From: Pseudobdellovibrio exovorus JSS
GTDB lineage: Bacteria; Bdellovibrionota; Bdellovibrionia; Bdellovibrionales; Bdellovibrionaceae
Assembly: GCF_000348725.1 (NCBI RefSeq)
Contig: NC_020813.1
Coordinates: 2,401,563-2,465,562 of the forward strand
Direction: 5' to 3'
Length of the DNA stretch: 64,000 nucleotides
The notes beneath the pieces are model-generated. The model was not told the origin of the DNA. It saw nothing but the letters and a program-made list of their open reading frames with translations, and searched no databases. Below, one piece after another: positions 44,494-63,416 of the stretch (the stretch's first letter is position 1; the number at the start of each line of letters is the position of its first letter). The position numbers were made by a program, and so were the translations under genes.

Positions 44494-44586
44494 GGAGAGG
44501 TGGGTGAGTGGCTGAAACCAAGCGTTTGCTAAACGCTCGTAGTTCCAAAAGAGCTACCGCGGGTTCAAATCCCGCTCTCTCCGCCA
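44494..44586 (+). tRNA. tRNA-Ser(GCT), integration target
   Basis: A 93-base class II tRNA with a long variable arm. The acceptor is GGAGAGG with TCTCTCC, the anticodon loop TTGCTAA (GCT), the T arm GCGGGTTCAAATCCCGC, and CCA is encoded. Its last 10 bases recur at 50467 and 59816, marking it as the insertion site of the islands to the right. The gene stays intact. Confidence 0.97.
44577..44586 (+). repeat. Attachment site copy 1 (attL, inside tRNA-Ser)
   Basis: CTCTCCGCCA, the 3' end of tRNA-Ser. It matches the two downstream copies over 10 bases. Confidence 0.75.
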
Positions 44587-44607
44587 TTTTTTTAAGAAAT
44601 ATAGGCT

Positions 44608-44783
44608 ATTACAAGAAAATTTATAAGTCCCTGCTCCTTGGTCGGCCCCATTACAAAAATTTAGTGTTTTCGGGGGTTTAGTTACAAAAATTTCCCCACC
44701 TCATTTTTAACGGTTGGAAATTTTAATTTTTTGTAACAACCCACAGGTCACCCACTGGGTGACGGCCTATTACAAAAATTTTT
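44608..44783. repeat. Arm-type integrase-site repeats at the left end of element A
   Basis: ATTACAAAAATTT at 44650, GTTACAAAAATTT at 44681, its inverse AATTTTTTGTAAC at 44725, ATTACAAAAATTTTT at 44769 and a weaker copy at 44608. A matching inverted TTTTTGTAATGG lies at 50403 near the other end. A perfect palindrome GTCACCCACTGGGTGAC lies between the copies (44747-44763) and its half GTCACCCA recurs near 50390. This is the pattern expected of lambda-type arm sites. Confidence 0.6.
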
Positions 44784-44802
44784 TCCGCTTGGATTTTAGG
44801 AA

Positions 44803-44832
44803 TAAAAAAACCGCTTTTTTTTGCGGTTTTTT
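44803..44832. terminator. Bidirectional terminator at the left end of element A
   Basis: AACCGC and GCGGTT flank a T-rich loop, with A and T runs on either side. It would end minus-strand transcripts from the small basic protein and integrase genes. Confidence 0.75.
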
Positions 44833-44880
44833 AGTTATTGAATTGTGATTAGTGCTTATCTGCTTTGGGGTGGAAATTTT

Positions 44881-45162
44881 TTACCTATTTTTGATTTCGT
44901 TAAACCGTTTTTCTAATCTGTTCTTGAACCCCTTAATCATTTGCTTAGTGGTCTGCTCAACCGCCTTTATCCATAATTTTTTATCTGGCATTTTGGGATT
45001 GTCCTGTAACAATGCCCCCATACAAATTTCTAAATAAGCCACTTCACTCTCACTAAGTTCGTGAGATTTTCTAAGTTTTTTTGCTACGATTTTTTTTATT
45101 CTCTTATTTGCCCGTAGTTCTTTTTCTACTTCTATTTCTTTTTTCGTTTTTTTCTTTGCCAT
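44881..45162 (-). CDS. Small basic protein next to integrase
   Basis: A 93-residue highly charged protein (MAKKKTKKEIEVEKELRANK), probably helical with no membrane segment. It lies 12 bases after the integrase gene, in the same direction. A recombination directionality factor or nucleoid-type DNA binder would fit (inference). No family recognised. Confidence 0.6.
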   Translation of the reverse strand: MAKKKTKKEIEVEKELRANKRIKKIVAKKLRKSHELSESEVAYLEICMGALLQDNPKMPDKKLWIKAVEQTTKQMIKGFKNRLEKRFNEIKNR

Positions 45163-45174
45163 ATCATTTCCTAT

Positions 45175-46422
45175 CTATCCGCTTTTTTGTTTTTTCGTGT
45201 AGGGCTTTAAGTTGTAAGAAACCCCCGCCGTGTCCTTGCTTTTAAGGTGGGCTATGTAGTGTTTAAGACTTTTGTAGTCCTTATGGCCTGTAAGGGTCTG
45301 GACTACTAAATAAGAAACTGGAATAGGGGCCGTTAATAAATTCATTACATAGGAACTTCTTAATGAGTGGAATATGGGCCAAGCCTCCTCACCCTTATGA
45401 TTTTTTTCGGGGATATATCCCACTTCTTTTAAAACCGATTGTAAGGCTCTGGCCGCTTTACCACCTTGCCATTCACTATCACGGGGAAATACAAATTCTT
45501 TTTCTGGGCTTCTCAACTTGTGGGCTAAAACATATTTCCTAATTGCGGTTATATCTATCTGCCTCTCTTTGCCCGTTTTGGTCGTAGTGATTGTTTCGTT
45601 TCTCCAATTAAAAGTAGATTTAACCACTATGTAACTGTTCTTTGGCTCCTCTAAATGAACATTCTCCCACTTTAATGAGTAGAGTTCCCCGCTCCTCATT
45701 CCCGTGTAGTAGGCGATATAAAAAACGGCGGCCCATTTTGAAAGTGGCTCCATATTCGGGCCGTGTAGTAGGTCTATGACCTTATTCATATCTTCGGGCC
45801 GTATCCACCTCACTTGATAAGGCTGGTCGTCCCTATCCTGTGGTAAATAAATTCCGTGGGCGGGGTTAAGGTAAATACTGGCGGCGGGGCCTAAAATATA
45901 TTTAAAGGCCGTCCGTATGTGTCTCATATAGTGCTTCTTCATTCCGTAGGAAAGAATACTAAACTCACGGCTTCTAATCATTGTCTCAATGTGGTGAATA
46001 GATATTTGAGAAAGAAATAATTTTTCCCAATGTCTTGTATATTTGTAGGCCGCCTTGGCCGTCTCTAATGAACCTTGTCCTAATGGCTTGTAACTGTTTT
46101 TACTGTCCTCAATTTTTTGTTCTATGTGCTTTATGTATCTACCGTAGGCGGCTTCCCATTTTAATTGGCCGTCTCTGTGCTTCATATCCTCTTGTTCTAA
46201 TTCGTAGGTAAATTTTTTTCTTAACTGTCGGGCTTCTTGAATGAGTTTTACCTGTCTCTTTTTTTTTGTTCTAACTTTTCCGTTAATCCGTTTTTGAACT
46301 ACAACCATAAAACGGTTACTATTGACCATTCTGTAAATACATTCCTCAACTTTCCTAACTTTGTCGTGAGGGCTTAAGTATTTTTCTTTTTTCTCTGTTT
46401 TTTTGTTTTGATTTTCGTCCAT
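45175..46422 (-). CDS. Tyrosine recombinase (integrase) of element A
   Basis: A 415-residue integrase with a basic N-terminus (arm-binding), a SAM-like core-binding domain (about 85-190), and the catalytic domain: YYTGMRSGELYSLKW (first Arg), FHSLRSSYV (HxxR), TLTGHKD (His) and LKHYIAHL (nucleophilic Tyr). It integrates and excises the element at tRNA-Ser. No anonymous-family doubt; the exact subfamily was not resolved. Confidence 0.92.
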   Translation of the reverse strand: MDENQNKKTEKKEKYLSPHDKVRKVEECIYRMVNSNRFMVVVQKRINGKVRTKKKRQVKLIQEARQLRKKFTYELEQEDMKHRDGQLKWEAAYGRYIKHIEQKIEDSKNSYKPLGQGSLETAKAAYKYTRHWEKLFLSQISIHHIETMIRSREFSILSYGMKKHYMRHIRTAFKYILGPAASIYLNPAHGIYLPQDRDDQPYQVRWIRPEDMNKVIDLLHGPNMEPLSKWAAVFYIAYYTGMRSGELYSLKWENVHLEEPKNSYIVVKSTFNWRNETITTTKTGKERQIDITAIRKYVLAHKLRSPEKEFVFPRDSEWQGGKAARALQSVLKEVGYIPEKNHKGEEAWPIFHSLRSSYVMNLLTAPIPVSYLVVQTLTGHKDYKSLKHYIAHLKSKDTAGVSYNLKPYTKKQKSG

Positions 46423-46468
46423 AAGTTTTTCCCTCTCTCTTTTCGGTAAATTTTTGAAAAGATTGAAT

Positions 46469-47029
46469 TTAAGCCGCTACGGGCGAGCGGTTCCCCGTGC
46501 GGGATTTTTTAAACTCCGTGAGTAATTGCCCGTAGTAGTCGGGGTTTAATTTTCTAAGCGGCTTAGGGGTGTGATAAACCCAAAGGGTCTCCATTTTGTC
46601 GGGCCAAAGTCTTGACGAGTTTTCTAAAAGGTAGGAACGAGTAAAGGCCATTTCTAAATAGAGCCGTAGAGCCATAGCCTTAAATTCTTTAGGGCTTAAG
46701 TCTTGTGTCTCTACCGAGTAGAAAAATCCGTTAAACTCACGGGGAAAAAGTTTTTCTCTCACCGCTAAAAGGCGGTCAATGTCTGGCCCCGTTACGGTGT
46801 CGGGGAATATCTCACTTAACTCTAAACCGAGCCGTGGGGTGTAACCCGTTCTAATGGCCTCAATGAGTTCGGGGCTGTCTGTTTTAGGGGTGTAAATGAT
46901 TTTAGGCCCCCGTATGCGGCCAATAACGGCCCCTAATACCGCCCATAGAAACCAAGCGAGGACTAACCCCATTAAGATAGGGCCAAGGAAAATGGGGGAA
47001 ATAAAGATTAGCATTAGTGGATTGTTCAT
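46469..47029 (-). CDS. Membrane-anchored protein of element A, unknown function
   Basis: A 186-residue protein with a hydrophobic N-terminus (about residues 5-37, one or two helices) followed by a soluble domain rich in Leu, Glu and Arg. Its ATG touches operator copy 1, so the element's regulator probably controls it. No family recognised. Confidence 0.65.
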   Translation of the reverse strand: MNNPLMLIFISPIFLGPILMGLVLAWFLWAVLGAVIGRIRGPKIIYTPKTDSPELIEAIRTGYTPRLGLELSEIFPDTVTGPDIDRLLAVREKLFPREFNGFFYSVETQDLSPKEFKAMALRLYLEMAFTRSYLLENSSRLWPDKMETLWVYHTPKPLRKLNPDYYGQLLTEFKKSRTGNRSPVAA

Positions 47030-47030
47030 A

Positions 47031-47046
47031 TAGTAAAATAATACTA
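47031..47046. promoter_or_regulatory. Operator-like palindrome, copy 1
   Basis: TAGTA-AAATAA-TACTA, extended to 7-bp perfect arms (TATAGTA/TACTATA). Read on the minus strand its 16 bases are identical to copy 4. Lies directly before the minus-strand membrane protein gene. Confidence 0.65.
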
Positions 47047-47085
47047 TAAAATAATGCTGTAAGTCAATTTATTTTTATAGTAGTG

Positions 47086-47101
47086 TAGTATTGTTTTACT
47101 A
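47086..47101. promoter_or_regulatory. Operator-like palindrome, copy 2
   Basis: TAGTA-TTGTTT-TACTA, 15 bases before the HTH gene start. Suggests autoregulation. Confidence 0.65.
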
Positions 47102-47116
47102 TGAGAGGATAAGCCT

Positions 47117-47365
47117 ATGGCCCAAAATGAAACGATAGATATTAAGGCCCTGTATAAAAAGAAACGGCGAAAACTCCCACGGTTGAGAGTTGGCGAGGCG
47201 ATTGAGGAAAGTGGCTTAACCTATATGGAAATAGCCGAGCGGCTTGGATTAAATCACTACCAAAACATTACTAAGTTAAAGGGTGCTGAAAATATCTCAT
47301 TTAAAAAACTCTGTGCCTTGGCCCTTGCCCTTGAATGTAAGGTTAAAGACCTCTACGAGGAATAG
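47117..47365 (+). CDS. XRE-type helix-turn-helix regulator of element A
   Basis: An 82-residue DNA-binding protein with a basic N-terminus (KKKRRKLPRLR) and a Cro/C1-type fold: LTYMEIAERLGLNHYQNITKLKGAENISFKKLCALALALECKVKDLYEE. Operator copies 1 and 2 lie in the divergent region before it, which makes it the likely binding protein for all four. GAGAGGA precedes the start. Confidence 0.8.
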   Translation: MAQNETIDIKALYKKKRRKLPRLRVGEAIEESGLTYMEIAERLGLNHYQNITKLKGAENISFKKLCALALALECKVKDLYEE

Positions 47366-47580
47366 CGGCGAAAGTCGTCCATTAGGCTTTTAGCGAGTTT
47401 ATAGAGCATAATTATTTCCCCTAATTTTAATTCATATTCTCCCTTAAAAATCTTGTAACGGTTCTTACTGACTTTTATGAGAGCGATTGAATTAGGATAA
47501 GATAAAGACCTAACCCGATAGACTATAAAATAGTCTTCTTTAAATTGTTCTTCTGGCCATATTAGATTGAGTGGCTCCAT
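47353..47580 (-). CDS. Hypothetical protein of element A
   Basis: A 75-residue protein with Tyr/Lys-rich strands (YFIVYRVRSLSYPNSIALIKV). Its 3' end overlaps the HTH gene by 13 bases in convergent orientation. No family recognised. Confidence 0.5.
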   Translation of the reverse strand: MEPLNLIWPEEQFKEDYFIVYRVRSLSYPNSIALIKVSKNRYKIFKGEYELKLGEIIMLYKLAKSLMDDFRRYSS

Positions 47581-47732
47581 TTGTTTTTCTCCTCATAAAA
47601 ACTAAATGGAACCACTCCGTTAAACTTTGACGAGTGCCGCCGCTTATTAGGAAATTAGATAAAATTTCCTAATAATAATTATTTTAAAGAGAAAATAATC
47701 AATTTTTGATTATCCCCATTTTTTGACGGTGA

Positions 47733-48077
47733 TTATGTTTTATCAGTATCAAGGGGCTTAAAGTTAAACCCTAACCGTGCTTGTATCACTTCCCAATTAT
47801 ACTCCGTGGGTTCTGTGAGCCTTAACCATTGCTTAGAGCCTTTATCCAAGGGGTCAAGTTGTATAAGTCTTAGTTCATTGAGTTGCTTTAATCCCGCTTG
47901 AACTGAGTTGTAAGATAGGCCCGTAGAAAATCCTAAATCCCTACGAGAAAACTGTAAGACTTTTTTAGCCTGTAAGTGGGGATTAGTCTCAACCCTGTAA
48001 CGGAAAAGTAAAAGTAACCTAAGCCCTGAATTAGAAACTACCTGAGAATTTAAAAACCACCCGTAAAATTTAAACAT
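47733..48077 (-). CDS. Winged-helix-like protein of element A
   Basis: A 114-residue protein with a probable winged helix-turn-helix: FSRRDLGFSTGLSYNSVQAGLKQLNELRLIQLDPLDKGSKQWLRLTEP. No dimerisation or ligand domain. Probably a small regulator or a copy-control protein. Divergent from the initiator-like gene, with 164 bases between them. Confidence 0.65.
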   Translation of the reverse strand: MFKFYGWFLNSQVVSNSGLRLLLLFRYRVETNPHLQAKKVLQFSRRDLGFSTGLSYNSVQAGLKQLNELRLIQLDPLDKGSKQWLRLTEPTEYNWEVIQARLGFNFKPLDTDKT

Positions 48078-48241
48078 AACTGAGGCCCCCTTTTGTCATC
48101 AGTTCTATAAATAGAAAATAGCCCCCTTTCTTTTTTCTTCTTTCTCTTTCCTTTTGTTCCCCTACCTATTGGAAACACCCACGGGCTTAGGTGTTCTCAA
48201 TGGTTTTAAGGTTTCCCATTTAGATAGAAAAGGGGGAACCA

Positions 48242-49030
48242 ATGAAACCTAAACAAGTGCCATATATTTTTATTCCGTATCCCGCTTTTCTGGCCGAGTG
48301 TGACGAACTCACTCCACAAGAAAAGGCGGTTTTATTATTTTTAATGTCCTCAACTTATAGAAACTGGAACCCGTCTTATAGAGAATTGGCCGCTAAACTC
48401 TCATTAGGAAACTCAACGATTAAGCGGGCGATTACTAAACTCCAATTATTAGGATTTATAACGGCCTCTGTGTCTATCCACGGGGAAACCTATAAGAATA
48501 AAGTAAATCAATACCGAGTTAATTTAAAAAATCCAGCCGAGTGGTGTCCTACTCTGGACTTAAAGACGAGTATAGAGCGGTGTTATGAGTTAAACGGTTC
48601 CCCCGTGCCTGTGTTTTCCTATGTGTATTTGGATAATAAAACATTGGCCGAGGATTTTGAGCGGGCCTTATCAACGGGGGAAATTAGGCGAACCCGTGCG
48701 GTTCCTGTGAGTATGGTGGATAAAATCTTATCCTCAACTTTACCAATAGAGTTAAGGCTTGAATTTGAGGAAAAGAAATTTAGGGCGGTCAATATCTGGC
48801 GGGCCTGTCGTGATTTTATTGAATGGCTTGAAATAAAAAAAGACTACATAAGCGGCGAGCAAGTAGAGCGGTTAAAAGATATTTTTATAAGTGAAAATCT
48901 GGACGGTGAGCGGCGAACGGTTCTACGGGAAACCCTACTTAATAAAACCGCCGCCGAGTTTTTAGCCGTGGTGGAAACTGAAAGGGAAAAATCACAAGCC
49001 GAACGGGATAAAAAATTATCCCCGTCCTAA
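48242..49030 (+). CDS. Winged-helix protein, replication-initiator-like
   Basis: A 262-residue protein. The N-terminal 90 residues are a helix-turn-helix as in plasmid Rep/DnaD-like initiators: LTPQEKAVLLFLMSSTYRNWNPSYRELAAKLSLGNSTIKRAITKLQLLGFI. The rest is helical and charged. GGGGGAA precedes ATG 48242. A role in element replication or regulation is inferred from fold and context only. Confidence 0.65.
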   Translation: MKPKQVPYIFIPYPAFLAECDELTPQEKAVLLFLMSSTYRNWNPSYRELAAKLSLGNSTIKRAITKLQLLGFITASVSIHGETYKNKVNQYRVNLKNPAEWCPTLDLKTSIERCYELNGSPVPVFSYVYLDNKTLAEDFERALSTGEIRRTRAVPVSMVDKILSSTLPIELRLEFEEKKFRAVNIWRACRDFIEWLEIKKDYISGEQVERLKDIFISENLDGERRTVLRETLLNKTAAEFLAVVETEREKSQAERDKKLSPS

Positions 49031-49045
49031 TTCTATTTAAGGAAT

Positions 49046-49213
49046 ATGGGAAAGGTGGGCCGTCCTAAAAAGAAAATTACTTATTTTATTGAGGTGATTT
49101 TTTATTTTTTCTTTGTTTCCTTCTTTGTCCTCTTCCTACTCCCTACCCCGCTCACCTTTACGGTGGCGGGGGCTTTTTGGCTAATAGGTGAGGTGGCGAG
49201 TGCTTTTAAATAA
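49046..49213 (+). CDS. Small membrane protein (55 aa)
   Basis: ATG 49046, with AAGGA just ahead, opens a 55-residue frame: a basic start (MGKVGRPKKKITYF), then two hydrophobic stretches (about 15-37 and 40-52). It starts 15 bases after the initiator-like gene and ends one base before the next GTG. Its position and topology suggest a real small gene. Confidence 0.5.
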   Translation: MGKVGRPKKKITYFIEVIFYFFFVSFFVLFLLPTPLTFTVAGAFWLIGEVASAFK

Positions 49214-49214
49214 T

Positions 49215-49481
49215 GTGCGGCCTGATAAGAATGACCCCTTATATTTTTTCTACCGCTTTGCGGTGCGGTCGTGGCTGTTATTTTTGTCCGTGATTTTTTC
49301 CGTTCCCGTTTTTCCCTTATTTGGAAAGTCTTTAACGGGGAACCAATTTTTAGCAATGTGCGGGGCATTTATCCTAATTGTCGTCGTGGATTTTTTGAGT
49401 GTGTGGATAAAGGCTTATCCCATATACAAGGAACAAGAGAGGATAGATTGGGAAACTTTTGGCCGTAGAAATACCCGCTAA
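49215..49481 (+). CDS. Small membrane protein (88 aa)
   Basis: From GTG 49215 the frame encodes 88 residues with two transmembrane segments (about 21-38 and 48-66) and a charged C-terminus (ERIDWETFGRRNTR). An earlier GTG at 49188 would overlap the previous small gene. No family recognised. Confidence 0.5.
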   Translation: MRPDKNDPLYFFYRFAVRSWLLFLSVIFSVPVFPLFGKSLTGNQFLAMCGAFILIVVVDFLSVWIKAYPIYKEQERIDWETFGRRNTR

Positions 49482-49508
49482 TTATTTGATTGTAGTCCGT
49501 TCCTATTG

Positions 49509-49524
49509 TAGTATAATTTTACTA
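49509..49524. promoter_or_regulatory. Operator-like palindrome, copy 3
   Basis: TAGTA-TAATTT-TACTA, overlapping the ATG of the truncated frame and upstream of the CPBP protease gene. Confidence 0.65.
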
Positions 49525-49589
49525 TGAATAAAATACTTATCATACAAGGTCACCCCAACACTGAAAGTTATAACCATGGTCGTCATTAG
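49524..49589 (+). pseudogene. Remnant of an NAD(P)H-quinone-oxidoreductase-like gene start
   Basis: ATG 49524 opens MNKILIIQGHPNTESYNHGRH and stops. The first 17 residues match the opening of flavodoxin-fold NAD(P)H dehydrogenases (KILIIQGHP). The rest is gone, replaced by the CPBP gene, whose start lies inside the remnant. It looks like a deletion or recombination junction that left the promoter and operator. It might instead act as a leader ORF. Confidence 0.55.
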
Positions 49590-50331
49590 TATTTTAATTT
49601 TAGGTATTTGGTCGGTAGAGTTTTTGGTGTTTCGCTTTGTAGTGAGTAAATCTTTATTTGCCGCTCAGTTAGCCCGTCTTTTGGCCGGTTTTATTATATT
49701 TAATTTTTGTTATTACTTTGGTTTTATACATAGTGATTTCTTGAATTTTGGGGATCTTTCGGCCATGGCTTCCCCTGTTTATTGGCTTGGAATTGGCGAA
49801 ACGGAAACTTGGAAAACTGTATCCGTTGGCTTTTTATTTTCCATAAGCCTTGTAACTTTTCTTTCCTTATACATTCCAAATAAGAAACTATTGAAAAGAC
49901 CAAAATGGTCTTTTCAATGGTTTTTTATCATTCTGTTTCTTGCTCTAATTAATGCTGCTATTGAGGAAATTCTTTATAGGCTTATTCCGCTAAGTGTCGG
50001 GAACTTGTCCCCCGCAACTCTCGCCCTGTGTTCTGGGATTGCCTTTGGATTGCCGCATTATTTTGGCCACCCAAGTAAGTGGCTTGGCATTATTCTGGCT
50101 GGTTTTCTTGGTTGGTTTTTGGCTAAGAGTGTCCTTGAAACTCAGGGTATTTTCTTAGCCTTTTTGTTCCATTGGGTTCAGGATATTTTAATTATTGGTA
50201 TTTTATCAATGTCTAAAAAAACCTCCATTTACCGAGATATTACCGAGGATAAAAAAGTTTTCATTAAAGGTATATTGCCCACAACCATAACCCTGATTGT
50301 CCTTTCGGCTTTTACTTATTTCGCAATATAG
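49576..50331 (+). CDS. CPBP family intramembrane metalloprotease
   Basis: A 251-residue membrane protein with about eight helices. AAIEEILYRLIPL holds the EExxxR motif, AFGLPHYFGHP the FxxxH-type His, and FHWVQD the last motif of the Abi/CAAX-protease (CPBP) family. Such proteins cleave peptides in the membrane and often serve in bacteriocin or phage immunity or in signal processing. Operator copies flank it on both sides. Confidence 0.82.
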   Translation: MVVISILILGIWSVEFLVFRFVVSKSLFAAQLARLLAGFIIFNFCYYFGFIHSDFLNFGDLSAMASPVYWLGIGETETWKTVSVGFLFSISLVTFLSLYIPNKKLLKRPKWSFQWFFIILFLALINAAIEEILYRLIPLSVGNLSPATLALCSGIAFGLPHYFGHPSKWLGIILAGFLGWFLAKSVLETQGIFLAFLFHWVQDILIIGILSMSKKTSIYRDITEDKKVFIKGILPTTITLIVLSAFTYFAI

Positions 50332-50344
50332 TATTATTTTACTA
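50329..50344. promoter_or_regulatory. Operator-like palindrome, copy 4
   Basis: TAGTA-TTATTT-TACTA, beginning in the stop codon of the CPBP gene. Identical over 16 bases to copy 1 read on the other strand. Confidence 0.6.
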
Positions 50345-50465
50345 TTGAGGGCTAAAAATTTTTGGAATGGGTTTAAAATTTCACCCACCCGTCACCCAAC
50401 TATTTTTGTAATGGCTTAAATATATGATATAATTAAGGAAAATCATTTTTAATGATTATTAAAAT

Positions 50466-50483
50466 CCTCTCCGCCAAATTCGT
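50466..50483 (+). repeat. Attachment site copy 2 (A/B junction)
   Basis: CCTCTCCGCCAAATTCGT, identical to copy 3 over 18 bases and to the tRNA-Ser end over the 10 bases CTCTCCGCCA. Confidence 0.8.
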
Positions 50484-50656: not shown

Positions 50657-50939
50657 CGCCGAAAATCCGATTACAGAGGACTCTTACAAAGCTTATTCAG
50701 ACGCTTTAAAAGCTGCGCTCTTCAACGTTTAACCTTCATCTGCCCAAAGACATTTATTAACAGAATCGAATGCGCGTATGGCTTTATTGTGGGGACTACT
50801 CCCCGTCAGTAATCCAAACCGAAATACGACTTCTCGGAATTTCAGGACTTTTCTGAACGAGAACTCGTATTTCCGCTCGATATATCGGAACTGGTCTCAA
50901 CACTGACCGAGGCTCAGTTCAGAATTTTGATGGGTGAAA

Positions 50940-51242
50940 ATGTCTAACAACTTAAAGATCAATACTGTCTTAAAACGCCTTATGCACGAACACGGCGAAA
51001 CTCTGATTTCTTTATCAAAAGCGACTGGAGTGCCGAAATCGACTATCTCCGAATGGTTAAGCAATAGAACTCCCAACCCCGTTCAAGCCGTAAAAGTGGC
51101 TAATGAGCTTGGTGTTAGTCTACATTTCTTATTATTCGGCGAAGACGATGCACAAGAGGCGTTTCAAAAGATTATGAAAGAAGACTTCTTTAAGGGGACG
51201 TTTGAAATTTCCATCAAAAAAGTAAAGGTCAGCACCAAATAA
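50940..51242 (+). CDS. XRE family helix-turn-helix regulator
   Basis: A 100-residue Cro/C1-type protein: ISLSKATGVPKSTISEWLSNRTPNPVQAVKVANELGVSLHFLLFGE is the HTH. The C-terminal 35 residues are unrelated to it. ATG 50940 is preferred to a GTG two codons earlier. Ten bases before a lipoprotein gene. Candidate master repressor of element B. Confidence 0.8.
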   Translation: MSNNLKINTVLKRLMHEHGETLISLSKATGVPKSTISEWLSNRTPNPVQAVKVANELGVSLHFLLFGEDDAQEAFQKIMKEDFFKGTFEISIKKVKVSTK

Positions 51243-52115: not shown

Positions 52116-52547
52116 TTAGGTCAATAAATTATAGTTTGCCAAATATTCTTGAAGAGTTTGAAACCAAGGAACTACTTCTGTTCCACTTTCTTTGTGACGC
52201 TCCCATGAGGCATCAAAAACATCTCCACTCCTATTTCCTATTACACCTATTAGCGGCTTACCTTTATTCTTAAGCTCTTTATTAAGAGCAACAATTACAG
52301 GAAAGATCACTTTCAAGCTAAGTGTATCCCATCTGATAAGACTCGTTACATCCAAAACAACCACTTCCCCAGCCTTAGATTCTTCTTTTATTTTGTCAAA
52401 ATCAGTTTGAAATAATTCAAAATCTTTTGTTTCAGTAACGTAACCAACTTTACCTGTAAATTTATATATATAGCCAATTCTAATTCCACGAGAGTTGATT
52501 AAATTTGCTCGCTCAAAAGGCTTTTGTGTTTTTATTGTATTATCCAT
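52116..52547 (-). CDS. STAS-like protein (anti-sigma-factor antagonist type)
   Basis: A 143-residue protein. AGEVVVLDVTSLIRWDTLSLKVIFPVIVALNKELKNKGKPLIGVIGN follows the STAS pattern, with DTLS at the loop where partner-switch STAS proteins carry a phosphorylated Ser/Thr. ATG 52547 follows AAAGGTGAT. It is the third gene of a phosphatase-kinase-STAS set with 10 and 12 base gaps. By analogy with SpoIIAA/RsbV it would be bound or released according to phosphorylation. Confidence 0.65.
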   Translation of the reverse strand: MDNTIKTQKPFERANLINSRGIRIGYIYKFTGKVGYVTETKDFELFQTDFDKIKEESKAGEVVVLDVTSLIRWDTLSLKVIFPVIVALNKELKNKGKPLIGVIGNRSGDVFDASWERHKESGTEVVPWFQTLQEYLANYNLLT

Positions 52548-52559
52548 AAGTATCACCTT

Positions 52560-52967
52560 TTATATTTTAATCTGAAGTTTAATAGTAACTAATCCATCTT
52601 CTATTGTTTTGCTGCGCAAGTATTCTTGAAACTGATCGACTGATCGCCCTACGACATTCTCAAGTCCTTTTTCAATCGGATCGTAATACTGCCCCCCATC
52701 ATATTGTATTCTAAATTTAAAATTACTACCACTATCATTAAACTTTGACTGCACTGCTATTTCATTCCAAGAATCATTGTGCTGCATAATGTTTACGACT
52801 TCTTCAATTATTTTTCTACACAGTTTTTGAACTAAATTATCATCTCCAGCCCTTAAACAAACCTCTTCTAGTTGTTCATCCAACTCTCTTATTTTTTGAG
52901 GATTATGTAGCTTTCCAAATGTTGCACGCGCTACTTCTTTCCTTTTGATAACCCATTCTTTAGACAT
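52560..52967 (-). CDS. GHKL ATPase-like protein (anti-sigma kinase type)
   Basis: A 135-residue protein. CRKIIEEVVNIMQHND corresponds to the N box of HATPase_c_2 (E..N..H), and IQYDGGQYYDP to the G1 box (DxGxG-like, degenerate). The strands VTIKLQIKI close the fold. The size equals RsbW/SpoIIAB. The degenerate ATP lid leaves kinase activity uncertain. It sits between the phosphatase and STAS genes. Confidence 0.6.
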   Translation of the reverse strand: MSKEWVIKRKEVARATFGKLHNPQKIRELDEQLEEVCLRAGDDNLVQKLCRKIIEEVVNIMQHNDSWNEIAVQSKFNDSGSNFKFRIQYDGGQYYDPIEKGLENVVGRSVDQFQEYLRSKTIEDGLVTIKLQIKI

Positions 52968-52977
52968 ACTTCATTCC

Positions 52978-53871
52978 TTAAATTAGTGAAACTAGCGCGA
53001 AAGAAAAGTCATCTTCAATTCTTTTGTGCGCCAATTGCTCTTCTATGGTTTTTAAAATTTTTGAACCAATACCCTCAACATCACCTTTTTGAATTTTGCA
53101 AAAAGTTTCAATCAAAATTTCCAATGGCACTCTTGAAATTTGTTTGTACAATTCTTCAAACCCATCAGAGAAAAAAAACATTACGTCTTCCTTCTTCATG
53201 CAAATTGACTTAGAAGTAAAACTCTCTTTATTCGCAGCTTGTCCTATCGGTGGTATCGGCTTATTGCCTGATTGAACTTTAATTACACTCGTTTTTTTGC
53301 CATCATAACAAAGCGGCGTTGGCATACCAGCATTTATAAAATCCAGCCGATCTGATCCTTTAGTTAAAGAAACTATGTTTCCGCTTGGCTCACCTCTCCA
53401 CAGCTCTACTGAGCTTCTAATAGTTTTGTTAACAGCCATATAAACTGCTTCTGGAGACAAACCAATATGAGGAATAGAGTTGATAACTGTATCAAAGCTT
53501 ACCTCTAAATAATTAGCATCTTTAATTGCAAAATTATCTGAACCTACAGCATCACAGTGCAATAGCCACACCTTATCTTGGCTTGCTTTTGTGTTAACTC
53601 TTACTTTGTCTCCACTAGATTTTTCAGGATACGAAAAATAAGAAATCCTCCAATTGCTTTCACTCGCAATTGCTAATGAAAACTTATGAGACTCTATTGG
53701 CAACCTTAAGAGTCTTTGAATTTTAACAAAAAGATGAGGCGGGACTTCAAAGTTACCCTTCTCCAGCCGAGAAACATGAGCTTGAGAAATGCCCAGTCTT
53801 TTAGCTATGTCCATTTGGGACATATTACTCTCTAATCTGAATTTACGTATCGCCTTGCCTATTTGACTCAT
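52978..53871 (-). CDS. XRE helix-turn-helix fused to a PP2C/SpoIIE-like phosphatase
   Basis: A 297-residue fusion. Residues about 1-65 are a Cro/C1 HTH (MSQMDIAKRLGISQAHVSRLEKG). Residues about 85-297 follow the SpoIIE PP2C pattern: LLHCDAVGSD (first metal Asp), DFINAGMPTPLCYD, MFFFSDGFEE and IEDDFSFALVSL (last metal Asp pair). This combines DNA binding and phosphatase in one chain. First gene of the three-gene set, with a palindrome array just upstream. Confidence 0.75.
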   Translation of the reverse strand: MSQIGKAIRKFRLESNMSQMDIAKRLGISQAHVSRLEKGNFEVPPHLFVKIQRLLRLPIESHKFSLAIASESNWRISYFSYPEKSSGDKVRVNTKASQDKVWLLHCDAVGSDNFAIKDANYLEVSFDTVINSIPHIGLSPEAVYMAVNKTIRSSVELWRGEPSGNIVSLTKGSDRLDFINAGMPTPLCYDGKKTSVIKVQSGNKPIPPIGQAANKESFTSKSICMKKEDVMFFFSDGFEELYKQISRVPLEILIETFCKIQKGDVEGIGSKILKTIEEQLAHKRIEDDFSFALVSLI

Positions 53872-53884
53872 AGATACTGTCCCC

Positions 53885-54139
53885 TATACATATTATATGT
53901 ATAATACCATATATTTTTATATATTTATACGTATATTTTTGTAAGTACAAGTATTTACTTAAGTTAAATAGTTTATTTATAAATGTTATGTATATACATA
54001 TAATATATAACTTATTTATGTATACATTATCTTTAACGCTCTTCTTTACCTATGTACGTACACAAGATAAGAGAGCAATTAGAATATAATACATCAAATA
54101 TGTATCATTTCGAAAAACAATTGTAATTTATACGTATAA
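53885..54139. repeat. Array of six perfect TA-rich palindromes
   Basis: TATACATA-TTA-TATGTATA (53885-53903), TATACGTATA (53926), TATGTATATACATA (53987), ATGTATACAT (54018), TGTACGTACA (54053) and TTATACGTATAA (54128). All are self-complementary with related cores. They lie in an 800-base AT-rich stretch without genes. Either an operator array for the HTH-phosphatase or a replication origin for the P4-type helicase. Confidence 0.6.
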
Positions 54140-54668: not shown

Positions 54669-55733
54669 ATGAAACAGCCAGAAACTATGTCATCAGAACT
54701 CATTAAAAGAGTTGAAAAAATGATTAGGGCCAAAAAAGAGACCAAAAGTGATTTTGTTGAAAACTTTGGCCACATCAATCCTCCAATGGCAATTAGATCA
54801 GAAAACAATGATGTGATATTTGCTTTAGATGGCAAAGTATATCTTCGCACAAACGGCAGCAGCTATAATTTTGCAAATATAATACATGATAATGCATTGA
54901 TAGCTTTAGGAATAGATTTCTTTAAACAAGGACTCACAAAACCGTTCGAGAAGTTACATCCAATTATTCAGTGGTTTAGCTCTGTTCATAGTTTTGACGA
55001 TAATATTATTAAACCTATACACCTTGGACACAGAGACGCATGGTACCGCTTGGCGTACGATCTGTACACAATCAGAGATAATGCTACATTAAAAGAACAG
55101 CTTAAAAAACGACTTATTAACCCTTTAACTTTTCAGGGCGCAAGGCATGAACTAAGGGTAGCTGCCATTTGCGTTGCCGCTGGATTTAATTTGGATTTTC
55201 AAGATGAATCTGATGGAAACTCTACACATCCAGAATTTATAGCTGCAGACAAGTTTTCATCTAACAAAATTGCTGTTGAAGCTAAAAGCCGCCATAGAAA
55301 CGGTATTCTTGGATTTACAGAAGGAAAAATAGAAGAGCATGGTAATAGCGTCAAAGCCAAGTCGCTTGTCACTAAAGCTTATAAAAAGGCTTCAGAAATT
55401 CCATATTACATTTTTGTGGATGTGAATCTCCCGCCTTACAAAGACGAGCAACAGTTTAAGACTTGGATTAAAGAGCTGGAGGACTCTATGATAGATTTAG
55501 CAGCAGCGGGGTATACTAACCCATGTCCTGCGAATGCTATATTTTTTTGTAATGATCCTTCTCACCATGTTACAGATAGGGCGTTAAACAGTGACACCAA
55601 CGCTCTTTGGATTAAGCACTTCATTGCAGAGTTACCAAAAACACCTCATCCTTCAGAGAAAGTTGTAGAACGTATAATGAAAGCTTTTACTCAAAGAGTT
55701 AGATTGCCCGAAGAAATAGACTTTAAATTTTAA
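54669..55733 (+). CDS. Putative PD-(D/E)xK nuclease-like protein
   Basis: About 354 residues from ATG 54669. FQGARHELRVAAICVAAGFNLDFQDE, then PEFIAADKFSSNKIAVEAKSRHR, gives the pattern Glu ... Glu/Asp ... E-A-K of restriction-type nucleases. The N-terminal 150 residues are helical and unrelated to known families. No methyltransferase partner. A phage-defence effector is plausible (inference). The start is uncertain, since several ATGs lie close together. Confidence 0.6.
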   Translation: MKQPETMSSELIKRVEKMIRAKKETKSDFVENFGHINPPMAIRSENNDVIFALDGKVYLRTNGSSYNFANIIHDNALIALGIDFFKQGLTKPFEKLHPIIQWFSSVHSFDDNIIKPIHLGHRDAWYRLAYDLYTIRDNATLKEQLKKRLINPLTFQGARHELRVAAICVAAGFNLDFQDESDGNSTHPEFIAADKFSSNKIAVEAKSRHRNGILGFTEGKIEEHGNSVKAKSLVTKAYKKASEIPYYIFVDVNLPPYKDEQQFKTWIKELEDSMIDLAAAGYTNPCPANAIFFCNDPSHHVTDRALNSDTNALWIKHFIAELPKTPHPSEKVVERIMKAFTQRVRLPEEIDFKF

Positions 55734-56923: not shown

Positions 56924-58297
56924 ATGAGCAATAAATCAAAACCCGCCAGATTTGTAGTCGACAGCTTTTTAAGTAGCGAATTTTTCAATAAAACAGCTCA
57001 AGCCCCTGAGCTAATATATAACAGTGGACGTTTTTATCAGTGGAAAAATGGCTGTTATTACGAAACAACAGAGGAAAATATCAAAACAGCCTTTACGCAT
57101 TGGGCTTATAAGCAAAAGAACTTTGATAATACAAAGAGAAATGCAGACGAGGCTCTTCACCATATTAAAACCAAATGCCAAGTTCCAAATCTTACAAAAA
57201 ATACTTTTTTAAATAAGACCAGCGGTTATTATCTGGCTTTTCAAAATGGTATTGTTGATATGGACCAAGCTATTAACTCATTTTTTGAAGCTGATGTACT
57301 TCCTCACACCCCTATATTTTTTAACGTAGCCCAAATTCCTTACTCCTATGTAGAAAAATCAGAGTGTCCAATTTGGCATAAAATTATCACTCAGATACTG
57401 CCAAATCCAATAGACAGACAACTACTTCAAGAGTGGATTGGGTATCATTTTATACCCGGTCTTTCATTTTCCAAAATGATGTTTTTTGAAGGTCATGGAG
57501 CAAATGGCAAAAGTGTCGTGTTGTTAGTTTTACGTTTACTGCTCGGGGCAGAAAATGTTTCATCTATACCTCTTAGCGCCTTTGAACCTGATAAGACTTT
57601 TAAATTAGCATCTACGGATGGAAAACTCGCCAACATTTGTGAAGAAGGTGGGCAAGTAAATAGAAGAGTAGAGGAAGCTCTGAAACAATATGTAAATGGC
57701 GGCACATTTACAGTCGAAAGAAAGTTCAAAGATCCTTTTCAAATGAATCCATCAGCCAAGATAACTGTAGCAACTAATGACTTTCCGCAATTTAACGAAA
57801 AGACTGACGGCATCTGGAGACGGATTTTGTATATCAAATTTGGAGTAACCATTAACCCCAAAGATCAAAAAAGAGAATATCTAGAGCAAGATTTTTGGCT
57901 TAAATCTGGTGAACTTGAAGGAATTTTAAACTGGGCCTTAGAAGGCGCCAGCAGACTTACATCAAACAACTCTTTTACATCTTCAGAACGTAAAAAAGAA
58001 GAACTGTTACGCCTAAAAATGAATTCAAACTCAATCCGCTTATGGATTGCTGACAGATTTGAGTCTATTCCTAACTTTACTCAGCCCACAGAAATTATTT
58101 TGAAAACTCTAAAGATGGATATAGAAAGTGGCCTTGTCCCAAGAGTAAAGTATCCTGACCTGTTTCAAGAAATTGAATCCCAGTTCAAAAATGCCAAACG
58201 TCCGTCAAATGCTATTATGTATCAAGGCAAACGAACGCGCGTAATTATTGGAGTGAAATTCAATCCGACACACTCAACACAGGAAAATACTAATTAA
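56924..58297 (+). CDS. P4-family DNA helicase (D5-type, primase C-terminal part)
   Basis: A 457-residue SF3-like helicase of phages and plasmids. A D5_N domain at about 20-150 is followed by the ATPase: GHGANGKSVVLLVLR (Walker A, about 190-197), LANICEEGG (Walker B), VTVATNDFPQF-like sensor 1 and IWRRILYIKF (Arg finger). No toprim or AEP primase domain is present, so priming must come from the host. AGGAG precedes ATG 56924. Confidence 0.88.
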   Translation: MSNKSKPARFVVDSFLSSEFFNKTAQAPELIYNSGRFYQWKNGCYYETTEENIKTAFTHWAYKQKNFDNTKRNADEALHHIKTKCQVPNLTKNTFLNKTSGYYLAFQNGIVDMDQAINSFFEADVLPHTPIFFNVAQIPYSYVEKSECPIWHKIITQILPNPIDRQLLQEWIGYHFIPGLSFSKMMFFEGHGANGKSVVLLVLRLLLGAENVSSIPLSAFEPDKTFKLASTDGKLANICEEGGQVNRRVEEALKQYVNGGTFTVERKFKDPFQMNPSAKITVATNDFPQFNEKTDGIWRRILYIKFGVTINPKDQKREYLEQDFWLKSGELEGILNWALEGASRLTSNNSFTSSERKKEELLRLKMNSNSIRLWIADRFESIPNFTQPTEIILKTLKMDIESGLVPRVKYPDLFQEIESQFKNAKRPSNAIMYQGKRTRVIIGVKFNPTHSTQENTN

Positions 58298-58397: not shown

Positions 58398-58646
58398 ATG
58401 GCAAAAGGGCTTTTTATTGCAAAACCATCTGACCCAGTGTTATCAGAGAACCCAAGTTCTTTGACAGATGAATGGTTAGATAGTTATGAAGCAGCTCAAT
58501 TTTTAAAGGTATCTGTGGCTATGTTGCGAAACATGGCCAGTAATGGCCAAATTCCATTTTACAAACTTGGCCGACGAAACAGATACAAACGAACCGAATT
58601 GAACGCTCTCTTATTGAAAAATAAAAGAGGGCTACATGAGCATTAA
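58398..58646 (+). CDS. Excisionase-like MerR/AlpA-type DNA-binding protein
   Basis: An 82-residue protein with LDSYEAAQFLKVSVAMLRNMASNGQIPFYKLGRRNRYKRTEL, the winged HTH of the excisionase (HTH_17) family. It overlaps the integrase start by 11 bases, so they are made together. The AAGTCGAAATCGACTGTG region just upstream carries small palindromes that may be binding sites. Confidence 0.85.
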   Translation: MAKGLFIAKPSDPVLSENPSSLTDEWLDSYEAAQFLKVSVAMLRNMASNGQIPFYKLGRRNRYKRTELNALLLKNKRGLHEH

Positions 58647-59733
58647 ATTTGATGAGACCACAAAGACCTATTCTGTTTCCTATGCGAAAAGGCATCCGAT
58701 CACACGGCAGCCGTTACAGCTTAAACGAACTCGCATAAAGACAAAGATTGAAGCTCAGCGCGTTTATACAGAGTTAGTGATCAAAGTTAACGAGAAGATC
58801 AAACAGAAGATAATGCCCACTTGGGCAAAGCATCTGGAAAACTACTTAGTCCGACTGAAGACATCCGACTTAATGAACACCACGATTCACTCCCGAGAAA
58901 AGGTCTTAAGGTGTCATACACTTGAACTTTGGGGCAATAGTTTCGTAGACGAAATCACAACGGACGATGTGCTACGCCTAGTCCGTGAAGGTTTAGGTAA
59001 AAGCGCTGAATCTCATAAAAAGTATATCTTGAACTGCATACGTTCAGTTTTTCAGAGTGCATACGATCAAGGGTTGATTCTTAGGAATCCCACCCCACAA
59101 CTTAAGTTCAAAGTGAACGACAAGATTAAGTCTGTCCTCAGTGAAGAGCAAATCGTTGTGCTACTTAGAAAAGCCCAAGAAGTAAAGTGGGATTGGTACC
59201 CGCATTATGCAATGGCCCTATTTACGGGTATGCGAAACGGCGAACTCTATGCGCTCACTTGGGACAAGGTGAATCTTGAGCTACGACAAATCAAAGTGGA
59301 CTGCTCTTGGAATAACAAAAATGGCTTTAAATCGACAAAGTCAGGTGACGACCGCATAGTAGAAATACCTTTGCCACTTATGCCCCTACTTCAAGAGCTA
59401 AAGCTGCAATCAGCGGATAGTCTTTTTGTGCTTCCCCGTCTGCAAAAGTGGGACAAAGGGGAACAAGCCCGAGAACTACGAATGTTTTTAGTATCTATTG
59501 GCTTACCACGGATTAGGTTTCACGATCTAAGAGCAAGCTGGGCCACTATGCTGCTAGCAAAAGGTGTTCCCCCAAGTCAGGTTATGGCAATGGGGGGCTG
59601 GAAGGACATGGACACCATGATGATCTATATGCGTAAAGCAGGAATCGACATCAAGGGGGCCACTAAGGTTTTAGATGGACTCGAAACACATGGTGTAGAA
59701 ATGGGCAAATTGGTTGAATTTAAAGCTAATTAA
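58636..59733 (+). CDS. Tyrosine recombinase (integrase) of element B
   Basis: A 365-residue integrase with an Arm-DNA-binding N-terminus, a core-binding domain (about 55-150), and the catalytic domain: LFTGMRNGELYALTW (Arg), RFHDLRASWATMLLAKG (HxxR), GGWKDMDTMMIYMRKAG (Trp in place of the second His; nucleophilic Tyr). Its stop lies about 80 bases before att copy 3. Little similarity is apparent to the element A integrase beyond the motifs. Confidence 0.92.
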   Translation: MSIKFDETTKTYSVSYAKRHPITRQPLQLKRTRIKTKIEAQRVYTELVIKVNEKIKQKIMPTWAKHLENYLVRLKTSDLMNTTIHSREKVLRCHTLELWGNSFVDEITTDDVLRLVREGLGKSAESHKKYILNCIRSVFQSAYDQGLILRNPTPQLKFKVNDKIKSVLSEEQIVVLLRKAQEVKWDWYPHYAMALFTGMRNGELYALTWDKVNLELRQIKVDCSWNNKNGFKSTKSGDDRIVEIPLPLMPLLQELKLQSADSLFVLPRLQKWDKGEQARELRMFLVSIGLPRIRFHDLRASWATMLLAKGVPPSQVMAMGGWKDMDTMMIYMRKAGIDIKGATKVLDGLETHGVEMGKLVEFKAN

Positions 59734-59993: not shown

Positions 59994-61112
59994 TTAATGC
60001 TGGAGTAAAATAAGCTCTTTCTGTCTATCATAGATACTTCCAAGACGATTTAGAAAAGCCTTACATCTTGTATTTGAAATATCTGTGAGAATACCTATCA
60101 ACCGAAGGTTTTCCTTACCCACTTCACTCAAAGATGAATAAAATAATTCCAAATCTTTAACACTGTTAAGCCTCATAAAAGTAAACAGCTTACCCAATAT
60201 ACCGACAACAACATCAGAAACTTGAATACCCACTTCGTCTTTAGAATCCTTGAATGAAAAACTATCTTTAACTTCTTTATGAATAAGTGGAGAATTTTTA
60301 ATCTTTTCTATAAGAACTGGTTCAACATCAAAACAATGATATGATTTTTCAAACCGAATTATTCTATTTATATAAAATGCTGCGAACCCATCAATTAGAC
60401 TTTTACCTTTTTGACCTTGAATAAACTCCATTTTTTCCTGTTTTTTAGCCATCTGAATTACACCTTTAAGCATCATATGATTAAAGTGTTCCTCAGTCGA
60501 CTCACCTTCATAATCGTGATTTTCGACTAATTCTAAAATTTTCTCAACGAACTTGGGCAACACCTCCGGAGGAATATCCGGATAGTTAAATTTACCTAGC
60601 AAATAAATCGTATAATCAAAATGAGTTACCAATACAGCATTTAGCTCAGCCTTTAACATAAAATGATCTGGAAAAAGATCTCGATTTTCAACTAAAACCG
60701 AATCAATTATATCTGTTATAGACCAATAAATTGGGTCTGTATCAGAATAATGAATATAGACTTTATGTTCATAAAGCCACTTTAAAAATCCGTTTAATTT
60801 TTTTGAAGAAATTGCTTCTTCAAAATTACCTTTTGCGATATTTTTAGTTTTAATCTCTTCAATGTTTTTATGTAACTTTAGTCTTTGTCTTAGTTCGAGT
60901 ATATCGAATGGTTTACTTTTTTCGTCACAAACAATCCCACCCAATACGAAATTCGATACTGTCGGCACATTTAAAGTATTATCGTCTGTAACGTATAACT
61001 TTCTTGTATTATTTGTTTCGTCATAAAAAAATATATACTCATCATCTAAGTTATTCAGTCCATGCATTTCAGCATCTATGTGAAGCATTCTTTTCAAATT
61101 GGCTTTATTCAT
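59994..61112 (-). CDS. DUF3800-like protein in the Septu-like operon
   Basis: A 372-residue protein. YIFFYDETNNTRKLY gives the D-E motif of DUF3800, and DEVGIQVSDVVVGILGKLF its late Asp motif. The family has a predicted RNase H-like fold. It lies downstream of ptuB on the same strand. A nuclease or auxiliary role in defence is inferred from fold and position. Confidence 0.7.
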   Translation of the reverse strand: MNKANLKRMLHIDAEMHGLNNLDDEYIFFYDETNNTRKLYVTDDNTLNVPTVSNFVLGGIVCDEKSKPFDILELRQRLKLHKNIEEIKTKNIAKGNFEEAISSKKLNGFLKWLYEHKVYIHYSDTDPIYWSITDIIDSVLVENRDLFPDHFMLKAELNAVLVTHFDYTIYLLGKFNYPDIPPEVLPKFVEKILELVENHDYEGESTEEHFNHMMLKGVIQMAKKQEKMEFIQGQKGKSLIDGFAAFYINRIIRFEKSYHCFDVEPVLIEKIKNSPLIHKEVKDSFSFKDSKDEVGIQVSDVVVGILGKLFTFMRLNSVKDLELFYSSLSEVGKENLRLIGILTDISNTRCKAFLNRLGSIYDRQKELILLQH

Positions 61113-61143
61113 GCAAACTTTTTACCTACCATTTAGGGGCGGT

Positions 61144-61284
61144 TTAATATATCTCACAACATTGAGTGTCGTAGCGTATGTCAATATAAACTTCTAACAA
61201 CTTACCAGAAATTGAATCGTCTGTTAGCTTCAGCACTATATATTTTTTATATTCTTCTTCAAAGCAACTCAGCGATAATTTCAT
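61144..61284 (-). CDS. Possible small ORF between ptuB-like and DUF3800 genes
   Basis: From ATG 61284 it would encode 46 residues (MKLSLSCFEEEYKKYIVLKL); an ATG at 61350 would give 68. It overlaps the end of the HNH gene by 26 bases in another frame and fills the gap before the DUF3800 gene. No family recognised. It may be a small subunit or chance. Confidence 0.35.
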   Translation of the reverse strand: MKLSLSCFEEEYKKYIVLKLTDDSISGKLLEVYIDIRYDTQCCEIY

Positions 61285-61903
61285 CAATTCCTGCCAGCGC
61301 TTCTTCTGGAGACTTCGCAGATAATTTATATATTTTTTCTTCCATTCCACCTGCAGAGTTTTTGAATTCAGCAGTAATTTTATTAGCCATCAACCCGAAT
61401 CTGCGCAAATTGCATATTTCTATTAATTTTATCCCTTTGCTACTTTGATTTACTTCAATCGGATAAAAATCTAAAAAAAAACTCACATGCTCATCAAAAT
61501 TATCATAGTGAGGGTGAGGAATGAGAAATCTTACGGATCGGTGCGGGTATCTTGATAAAGATTTTTCGGTCCTTTCATTGTGGTACACATACTTAGCACT
61601 TTTGGCTGAGTTACAATCTCGGCACGAAAGTGCTAAGTTTTTTAAAGCAAAACAGAATTTTTCATTGTTGTCGCGAGCAATAACATGCTCTATGTGCGTA
61701 AGCCGGGTCTCTTTAGACAACTCCTGCTTACAATAAACACAGAGATTCTCTTGCTCTACATACAAATGGCTTTTTAAGTTTTTTTTTAAATCTTGGAAGG
61801 TATGGGTATCCCAGGAATCTTTTTTTTTCGATTCAGGCAATTTCAATAATTCTTTTTCAGAATTGCTTAGTGTATATAAATTTTCAATTCTGTTTTTGCC
61901 CAT
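61259..61903 (-). CDS. ptuB: HNH endonuclease, PtuB-like (Septu)
   Basis: A 214-residue HNH nuclease of the TIGR02646/retron-HNH type. ENLCVYCKQEL and LSCRDCNSAK supply the two zinc Cys pairs, and THIEHVIAR with the following Asn-Asn the HNH active site. The start overlaps the ATPase gene by 20 bases. In Septu systems PtuB is the DNA-cutting partner of PtuA. Confidence 0.8.
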   Translation of the reverse strand: MGKNRIENLYTLSNSEKELLKLPESKKKDSWDTHTFQDLKKNLKSHLYVEQENLCVYCKQELSKETRLTHIEHVIARDNNEKFCFALKNLALSCRDCNSAKSAKYVYHNERTEKSLSRYPHRSVRFLIPHPHYDNFDEHVSFFLDFYPIEVNQSSKGIKLIEICNLRRFGLMANKITAEFKNSAGGMEEKIYKLSAKSPEEALAGIDEIIAELL

Positions 61904-63416
61904 CTATAGCCTTCGATATTTTTTGAACTAGTAAATATATCGGATCACTCGTATTAAGTTTTTTAGTCAGATCCAAAAGCTCATCAATGTTACTTCTATC
62001 GCTGGAAGTCCATATTCCTTTATGATCTTTTAACGATTGAAAAATCTTTCCAACTTTATCGTTTAAATAATAGTTTCTAGATGTTGCCATATTGAATGTA
62101 TTTAATATAATTTCTTCAACCGAAAGTCCGTATGTCTCACCTTTATATTGTCTAACTAAAATTTTACCATTCTTTTTTTCCATTCTAAGAATATTGGCCT
62201 CATCTGATTTTACATCCGAAATAATAAACGGCGAATGTGTCACGACTAAATAATGTAGGCCTCTAAATTTAGATAAGATCTGATCCAAATTGTCCACGAG
62301 CCTAGTTTGCCACTCTGGATGCAAGCTTATTTCTGGCTCATCAATTAAAACTAATGCGTCGTCCTCTACCACTCCAAGTAAAGCCATAAATGTTGCCAGC
62401 TGTTGAAGCTCACCACTGCTTGCTTCACGATAATTTACGGCCTTTCCATTTTTATATAAAATAAGATCCTGTAACCTAATTATCCCTAACTCTTGCAAAA
62501 CTTTAAATTCTTCCATTTCATTATTTAAAGTTTTTCCATTTAACTCAAGATGTCCACCAAGCAAGTCAAACTTCAGCTCACTTCGCCAGTTAATACCTCT
62601 ATCTCGGAACGAGCATTCTATCATTTCAAATAAAGTTTTCGAAATTTTATCTTTTAAAACTTCATCATTGAAATAACCTAACCGCACTAATTCAGAAGTT
62701 CTATAAGAACTTCTTCCATTTATCGCATCCTCTACTATCTGTCGCGCCGTTTTCTTACTTATCTTTTCATCGAAACCTTGCTTATATTTAGTTAATTTAT
62801 GTATTACATATCTTATATCTATATGTGATTGAAAATCTAACGTCTCAAGGAGTCTTTTAATGTTTCTTCTGTAAAAAGTATCGTTCGACCTACTAATAAA
62901 GACTTCAAAAGCATTACGTATATGCATCCCATAAACCAACTGCCCTCGCCGTGAACGTGTTCCAAAGTATTGGTAATATTCGTCGAAGTGGTTCTCAAAA
63001 AATCTTATACGGTCATACTTTAAAGGAAATCTCTCAGAGACGGTATTTGTCGAAACAATAATTTTTGATGGCAACTCTATATTTTCAATCATCACAGGTT
63101 TGTCATTTTTTTTAATTGCAATTATTTCATCTCTACAATCGATCACATATCTATTATTATTAACAGAATAAGATAATTCAAAATCACACCGGTATTTTTG
63201 TTTTGATACTTTATCTAGTACGGCGTTACGCATTTTATCTAGGTTGATAAAAATGTCAGTTAACAAATACAAAAGGGTGGATTTTCCAGAACCGTTTGTT
63301 CCGATAATTATAGTCTTATAATTAATGTACCCAGAATCTCTGTTATCTAAAAAGTCAATAGTGCAGTCACCCAAAATTTCATGTTTTTGAATGACAATTT
63401 TCTCTAACACAAACAT
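61884..63416 (-). CDS. ptuA: AAA ATPase, PtuA-like (Septu)
   Basis: A 510-residue ABC-type/OLD-like ATPase. Walker A is GTNGSGKST (39-47). A central helical insert of about 230 residues is followed by the signature EASSGELQQLATF, Walker B ALVLIDEPEISLHPEWQ, and the H-loop LVVTHSPFIISD. The gene pair with an HNH nuclease is the Septu architecture; retron-associated PtuAB is the alternative, but no reverse transcriptase lies here. Confidence 0.82.
   Translation of the reverse strand: MFVLEKIVIQKHEILGDCTIDFLDNRDSGYINYKTIIIGTNGSGKSTLLYLLTDIFINLDKMRNAVLDKVSKQKYRCDFELSYSVNNNRYVIDCRDEIIAIKKNDKPVMIENIELPSKIIVSTNTVSERFPLKYDRIRFFENHFDEYYQYFGTRSRRGQLVYGMHIRNAFEVFISRSNDTFYRRNIKRLLETLDFQSHIDIRYVIHKLTKYKQGFDEKISKKTARQIVEDAINGRSSYRTSELVRLGYFNDEVLKDKISKTLFEMIECSFRDRGINWRSELKFDLLGGHLELNGKTLNNEMEEFKVLQELGIIRLQDLILYKNGKAVNYREASSGELQQLATFMALLGVVEDDALVLIDEPEISLHPEWQTRLVDNLDQILSKFRGLHYLVVTHSPFIISDVKSDEANILRMEKKNGKILVRQYKGETYGLSVEEIILNTFNMATSRNYYLNDKVGKIFQSLKDHKGIWTSSDRSNIDELLDLTKKLNTSDPIYLLVQKISKAIDGQKQN

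Follow-up and report, generated by a model that had tools for sequence, protein, structure and literature searches.

A candidate partner-switching-type module with an HTH-fused phosphatase on a small tRNA-Ser-associated element of Pseudobdellovibrio exovorus

Described partner-switching systems and the trio

Described partner-switching systems include RsbU-RsbW-RsbV and SpoIIE-SpoIIAB-SpoIIAA of Bacillus. The readout is usually a sigma factor or an enzyme that is bound by the kinase or the STAS protein. The SiaABCD system of Pseudomonas aeruginosa combines a PP2C phosphatase and a kinase with a STAS-fold partner that has a Thr site, its output being a diguanylate cyclase, not a sigma factor (PMC7647112). 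RbaY-RbaW-RbaV of Rhodobacter capsulatus is a partner-switching system without an identified sigma factor that affects the gene transfer agent (PMC3999984). In Rv1364c of M. tuberculosis (PDB 3ke6) the architecture is fused, with the RsbU and RsbW domains on a single polypeptide.

The window analysed here is a 64,000-nt stretch of the genome of P. exovorus JSS (NC_020813.1, positions 2,401,563 to 2,465,562), and coordinates are those of the window. It contains a trio of minus-strand genes (52116-53871) separated by intergenic gaps of 10 and 12 bp, as follows.

52978..53871, minus strand: XRE HTH fused to a SpoIIE/PP2C-type Ser/Thr phosphatase (XRE-PP2C), 297 aa; PF07228 and HTH_3
52560..52967, minus strand: GHKL protein of RsbW/SpoIIAB fold, 135 aa; model compared with UsfX/SpoIIAB/RsbW, and N-box alignment
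52116..52547, minus strand: STAS protein, 143 aa; ATG at 52547, with an alternative GTG start at 52556

Like the Bacillus systems, the trio comprises a SpoIIE-type PP2C phosphatase, a GHKL protein with the RsbW/SpoIIAB fold and a STAS protein with an Asp-Ser/Thr site. It differs from them in having an HTH on the phosphatase and conserved operator-like sites at its own promoter, in the lack of a linked sigma factor here, in a GHKL protein without the G2 glycines, and in that the phosphatase gene comes first. SiaABCD shares with the trio the combination of PP2C, kinase and STAS-fold partner, but has no DNA-binding member, and no fusion of SiaA to an HTH is known. RbaY-RbaW-RbaV resembles the trio in having no identified sigma factor and in its tie to a phage-like element. 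By contrast, its phosphatase carries a REC domain rather than an HTH, the phosphatase gene lies apart from rbaVW, and these are chromosomal host genes. The RsbW domain of Rv1364c matches the model of the GHKL protein and its fused architecture is a further likeness to the trio, but no HTH is included in the description of the structure entry. No account of an HTH-SpoIIE partner switch was found in the open-access literature searched; this is limited evidence, and such systems may exist elsewhere.

Judged from the sequences, the trio appears to depart from known partner switching by the fusion of an HTH to the phosphatase, with conserved operator-like sites, and by a degenerate GHKL protein. 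We consider it somewhat probable that the trio is a self-contained module of the partner-switching type whose phosphatase doubles as a DNA-binding regulator, carried as cargo by a 9.4-kb element associated with tRNA-Ser.

The three proteins and their relatives

A preliminary description of this DNA had proposed three tightly spaced genes encoding an XRE HTH fused to a SpoIIE/PP2C-like phosphatase, a GHKL kinase-like protein and a STAS-like protein. The spacing is as described, and the fusion is borne out by Pfam, in which HTH_3 is matched at residues 8-60 (E 1e-9) and SpoIIE (PF07228) at residues 120-294 (E 1.9e-13), both over the cut-off. On alignment of the phosphatases of the four loci where the trio was found, the Asp residues at the PP2C metal positions (D88, D107, D236 and D288) are invariant.

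The GHKL and STAS proteins of the window gave, taken alone, no significant match in Pfam, NCBIfam or PHROGs; here it is structure models, each built from an alignment of four sequences, that agree with the proposed assignments. The AlphaFold model of the GHKL protein is of moderate confidence (mean pLDDT 64). Its best 11 structural entries are all partner-switching proteins, with Z scores of 9.1-11.0, while histidine kinases and others score 6.9 or less. The entries include UsfX (Z 11.0; two UsfX entries are among the 11), the RsbW domain of Rv1364c (9.8), RsbW (9.7), SpoIIAB (9.6) and SiaB (9.1). Comparison with PDB sequence profiles gave a weak match to VraS (E 0.44) alongside GFP noise.

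E55 and N59 of the N-box are invariant in the GHKL proteins of the four loci, and are aligned to the N-box Glu and Asn of SpoIIAB in a whole-profile comparison that is itself weak (E 0.24). The SpoIIAB sequence used was checked against its relatives in the PDB. By motif count none of the four GHKL proteins has the GxG of the G2 motif, so that ATP use by the GHKL protein appears doubtful and the kinase step in the trio uncertain. Since the protein lacks this motif we do not claim it as an RsbW-type kinase. The preliminary description had seen here the complete RsbU-RsbW-RsbV logic; a trio of partner-switching type led by an HTH-phosphatase stands, but in the lack of the G2 glycine motif completeness goes too far.

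The model of the STAS protein has a pLDDT of 80. Its best matches have Z scores of 11-12, and comprise RsfB (12.2), other anti-sigma antagonists, SpoIIAA (about 11), and also STAS domains of transporters. A profile comparison with SpoIIAA gave E 5e-4, with D73-T74 aligned to the Asp-Ser site; against PDB sequence profiles SpoIIAA was matched weakly (E 0.16). The candidate phosphoacceptor Thr lies within the sequence RWDTLSL. An Asp-Ser/Thr pair is present in all four STAS proteins; those of the window and L042 have D-T, those of L041 and L043 D-S. There is a precedent for Thr as phosphoacceptor in T68 of SiaC (PMC7647112).

The full trio was found in identical order and orientation in four genomes, including that of P. 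exovorus, out of 369 searched in the phylum Bdellovibrionota. The three other loci are these.

G022 (L002/L037, public contig L042): trio relative of the same family
G275 (L038/L041): trio relative found with a two-row profile
G219 (L039/L043): trio relative found with a two-row profile

Their phosphatases are 24-31% identical to XRE-PP2C of the window. The genes flanking the trio differ among the loci, and the trio alone is common to them. Because the gene order and orientation are repeated in three divergent genomes, the association is more than chance, and co-occurrence of the homologues, which the preliminary description had set as a test, was found in that phosphatase, GHKL and STAS genes are together in all four loci. 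In phage records, plasmids and viral contigs the search for trio relatives gave matches at the level of the HTH or none. A wider scan of genome contigs gave near-full-length matches only at the three loci already found; as it used a single HTH pattern, it barely covers the distribution outside Bdellovibrionota. We note that the surroundings of the trio in L041 (4141-12711) include genes for HipA and for an ADP-ribosyltransferase-like protein, together with, by reading, an AbiE-like pair.

Operator-like palindromes and the output of the trio

The region 5' of the trio is AT-rich and contains 14 palindromes with arms of at least 6, compared with 3.2 in shuffled sequences. Six sites in this region conform to the pattern TRTAYRTAYA, forming a cluster that begins 23 bp from the trio and spans 245 bp.

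53894, 53926, 53989, 53993, 54053 and 54129 (span 53894..54138), no strand: operator-like cluster TRTAYRTAYA, at -32 to -267 from the ATG

The region chosen in the preliminary description stops at 54139, where the cluster (53894-54138) has its last palindrome end. The window has seven occurrences of TRTAYRTAYA where 0.56 are expected. The 2.66-Mb genome has 17, six of which lie in 53894-54138; the reversed pattern, used as a control, has 18 occurrences genome-wide. There is no second cluster of the pattern anywhere in the genome, so that control by XRE-PP2C looks, from the distribution of sites, to be local.

All of the relatives have the same pattern upstream of the operon, no more than 105 bp from its start: once in L041, four times in L042 and twice in L043. 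These site counts were matched in 2.8% of shuffles for L041, in none for L042 and in 0.06% for L043 (n = 5000). Note that the pattern was settled by eye with the upstream regions of the relatives in view, and therefore the figures from shuffling serve as a guide rather than as a blind test; the sites of the window alone yield the same pattern. In addition a 14-mer, ATATGTATATACAT, is identical 5' of the operons of the window, L042 and L043. None of 2000 shuffles gave such a word, the longest common word being 11. A promoter scan was at chance level.

Given palindromes 5' of all four operons and the common 14-mer, the HTH-phosphatase probably binds its own promoter. The palindromes could belong to another AT-binding protein. 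As regards the HTH, the proposal of a DNA-binding domain on the phosphatase itself is confirmed, with support at the level of sequence for binding at its own promoter.

We regard an autoregulated, sigma-independent form of partner switching as the best reading of these data, in which we infer both the coupling of phosphorylation to DNA binding and the output. XRE-PP2C would bind the TRTAYRTAYA sites and repress, or tune, its own operon. Its PP2C domain would remove phosphate from the STAS protein at the conserved Ser/Thr, and the GHKL protein would phosphorylate the STAS protein, bind it, or both. The state of the STAS and GHKL proteins would act back on the HTH-phosphatase, such that a signal could alter operator occupancy without a dedicated sigma factor. 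More specifically, we suggest tentatively that the STAS/GHKL pair toggles the HTH-phosphatase repressor on and off the palindrome array, with the phosphatase's own DNA binding as the sigma-independent output. If true, phospho-signalling and transcriptional repression would be joined in a single protein; here, in place of the usual readout, it is the phosphatase that carries a DNA-binding domain.

The main rival is a classical anti-sigma switch, in which the GHKL protein would hold an unlinked sigma factor of the host, the STAS protein would free it, and the HTH would serve only in autoregulation. The folds of the GHKL and STAS proteins are indeed closest to anti-sigma/antagonist pairs, and L041 has a sigma-70-family gene (1537-2247; PF04542, E 2e-9) that diverges from the trio, the gap between them holding one TRTAYRTAYA site. 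Against this, no sigma-factor domain was found among the scanned ORFs of the element, except for scores resembling sigma region 4 that come from the HTH itself; the ORF lists of L042 and L043 have no sigma gene adjoining the trio; and conservation of the trio does not extend to any sigma gene. We consider this explanation rather unlikely. The preliminary description had stated that no sigma factor gene was nearby, and that holds for the scanned ORFs of the element but is not general, given the divergent gene in L041. That gene is followed by one that reads like a membrane protein.

The conserved operator pattern provides an immediate handle on the system. The promoter, sites and three proteins are contained in about 2 kb, and could be rebuilt in E. 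coli.

The host element and the trio as probable cargo

The element that bears the trio is 9.4 kb in length and is flanked by exact 18-bp repeats. Its other features are as follows.

50466..50483, plus strand: left direct repeat CCTCTCCGCCAAATTCGT (att candidate), exact 18-bp repeat
50934..51242, plus strand: separate small XRE/CI-like regulator of the backbone; Phage_CI_repr 1.1e-7
54669..55733, plus strand: divergent 354-aa gene beside the operator-like cluster; no Pfam, PHROG or PADLOC match
56924..58297, plus strand: D5_N/DUF5906 primase-helicase; DUF5906 2.7e-17, phrog_864 DNA primase 6e-65
58636..59733, plus strand: tyrosine integrase; PF00589 3.2e-19, 61-67% identical in L089, L090 and L092
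59815..59832, plus strand: right direct repeat CCTCTCCGCCAAATTCGT (att candidate), exact 18-bp repeat

The first 16 bases of the repeat occur only twice in the genome. The repeats contain CTCTCCGCCA, which is the 3' end of tRNA-Ser (44577-44586), and these are the only three places where it occurs in the window. The integrase, primase, att-like repeats and small size agree with the earlier view that the trio lies on an integrative element; the satellite-like nature proposed in the preliminary description would further imply dependence on a helper.

Four related elements (L089-L092) have primases 33-50% identical to that of the window, and a small XRE is present in three of them (76% identical in L089, 34% in L091 and 32% in L090). 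None of the four carries the trio. In L090, which is of the same genus, the element lies by tRNA-Ser(GCT) between exact 34-bp repeats that contain CTCTCCGCCA, and tRNA-Arg(ACG) precedes tRNA-Ser both there and in the window. Overall L089-L092 make up one family of Bdellovibrionales elements that lie next to tRNA genes, with integrase and primase in common and variable cargo; by reading, L089 and L090 also hold an Xre-RES-like pair. Since there are related elements without the trio, most of which have a separate small XRE, the trio is best seen as cargo, and this is more likely than that it substitutes for a CI-like switch. This points to signalling modules as part of the cargo that small integrative elements bring into predatory bacteria.

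The preliminary description had instead suggested that the trio could couple a stress or phage signal to transcription of the element, in place of a CI-type switch. On this reading the trio would be the main lysis/lysogeny-like switch of the element, and the signal would be coupled to excision. The trio does share its element with an integrase, a primase and direct repeats, and its XRE HTH is accompanied by an operator cluster. Yet the element and three of its relatives carry another small XRE; no TRTAYRTAYA lies near the integrase or primase; and by reading the trio of L043 is surrounded by queA/tgt/secDF-like genes with no obvious element. Together with the absence of the trio from the related elements, this makes such a role very improbable. 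Replacement of CI by the trio was judged unlikely in view of the conserved separate small XRE.

A further alternative is that the trio and the divergent 354-aa gene form a unit for defence or conflict, in which a toxic or nuclease effector would be under the trio's control. The trio sits between the XRE/lipoprotein genes of the backbone and the primase, a stretch whose equivalent in L091 encodes, by reading, an AAA ATPase and an S8-like protease, and PtuAB and PDC-S51 genes adjoin the element. But the 354-aa gene is absent from the other three trios and has no defence match, and its ATG is about 530 bp from the nearest TRTAYRTAYA site, whereas the cluster begins close to the trio. We therefore think a defence unit improbable. 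As an obligate partner of the trio the 354-aa gene is unlikely, since it is unlinked to the other trios. The protein has no relative in the 369 genomes of the phylum searched; partial matches were found on rhizobial plasmids, some of them annotated as SEC-C.

Two neighbouring regions may be noted. To the right of the element (59994-63416) are a PDC-S51 candidate defence protein (5e-100) and Septu-like PtuB and PtuA (6e-65 and 1e-89). Beside tRNA-Ser there is a second, tandem island (44587-50476), which encodes a tyrosine integrase of its own (45175-46422) and likewise ends in CTCTCCGCCA.
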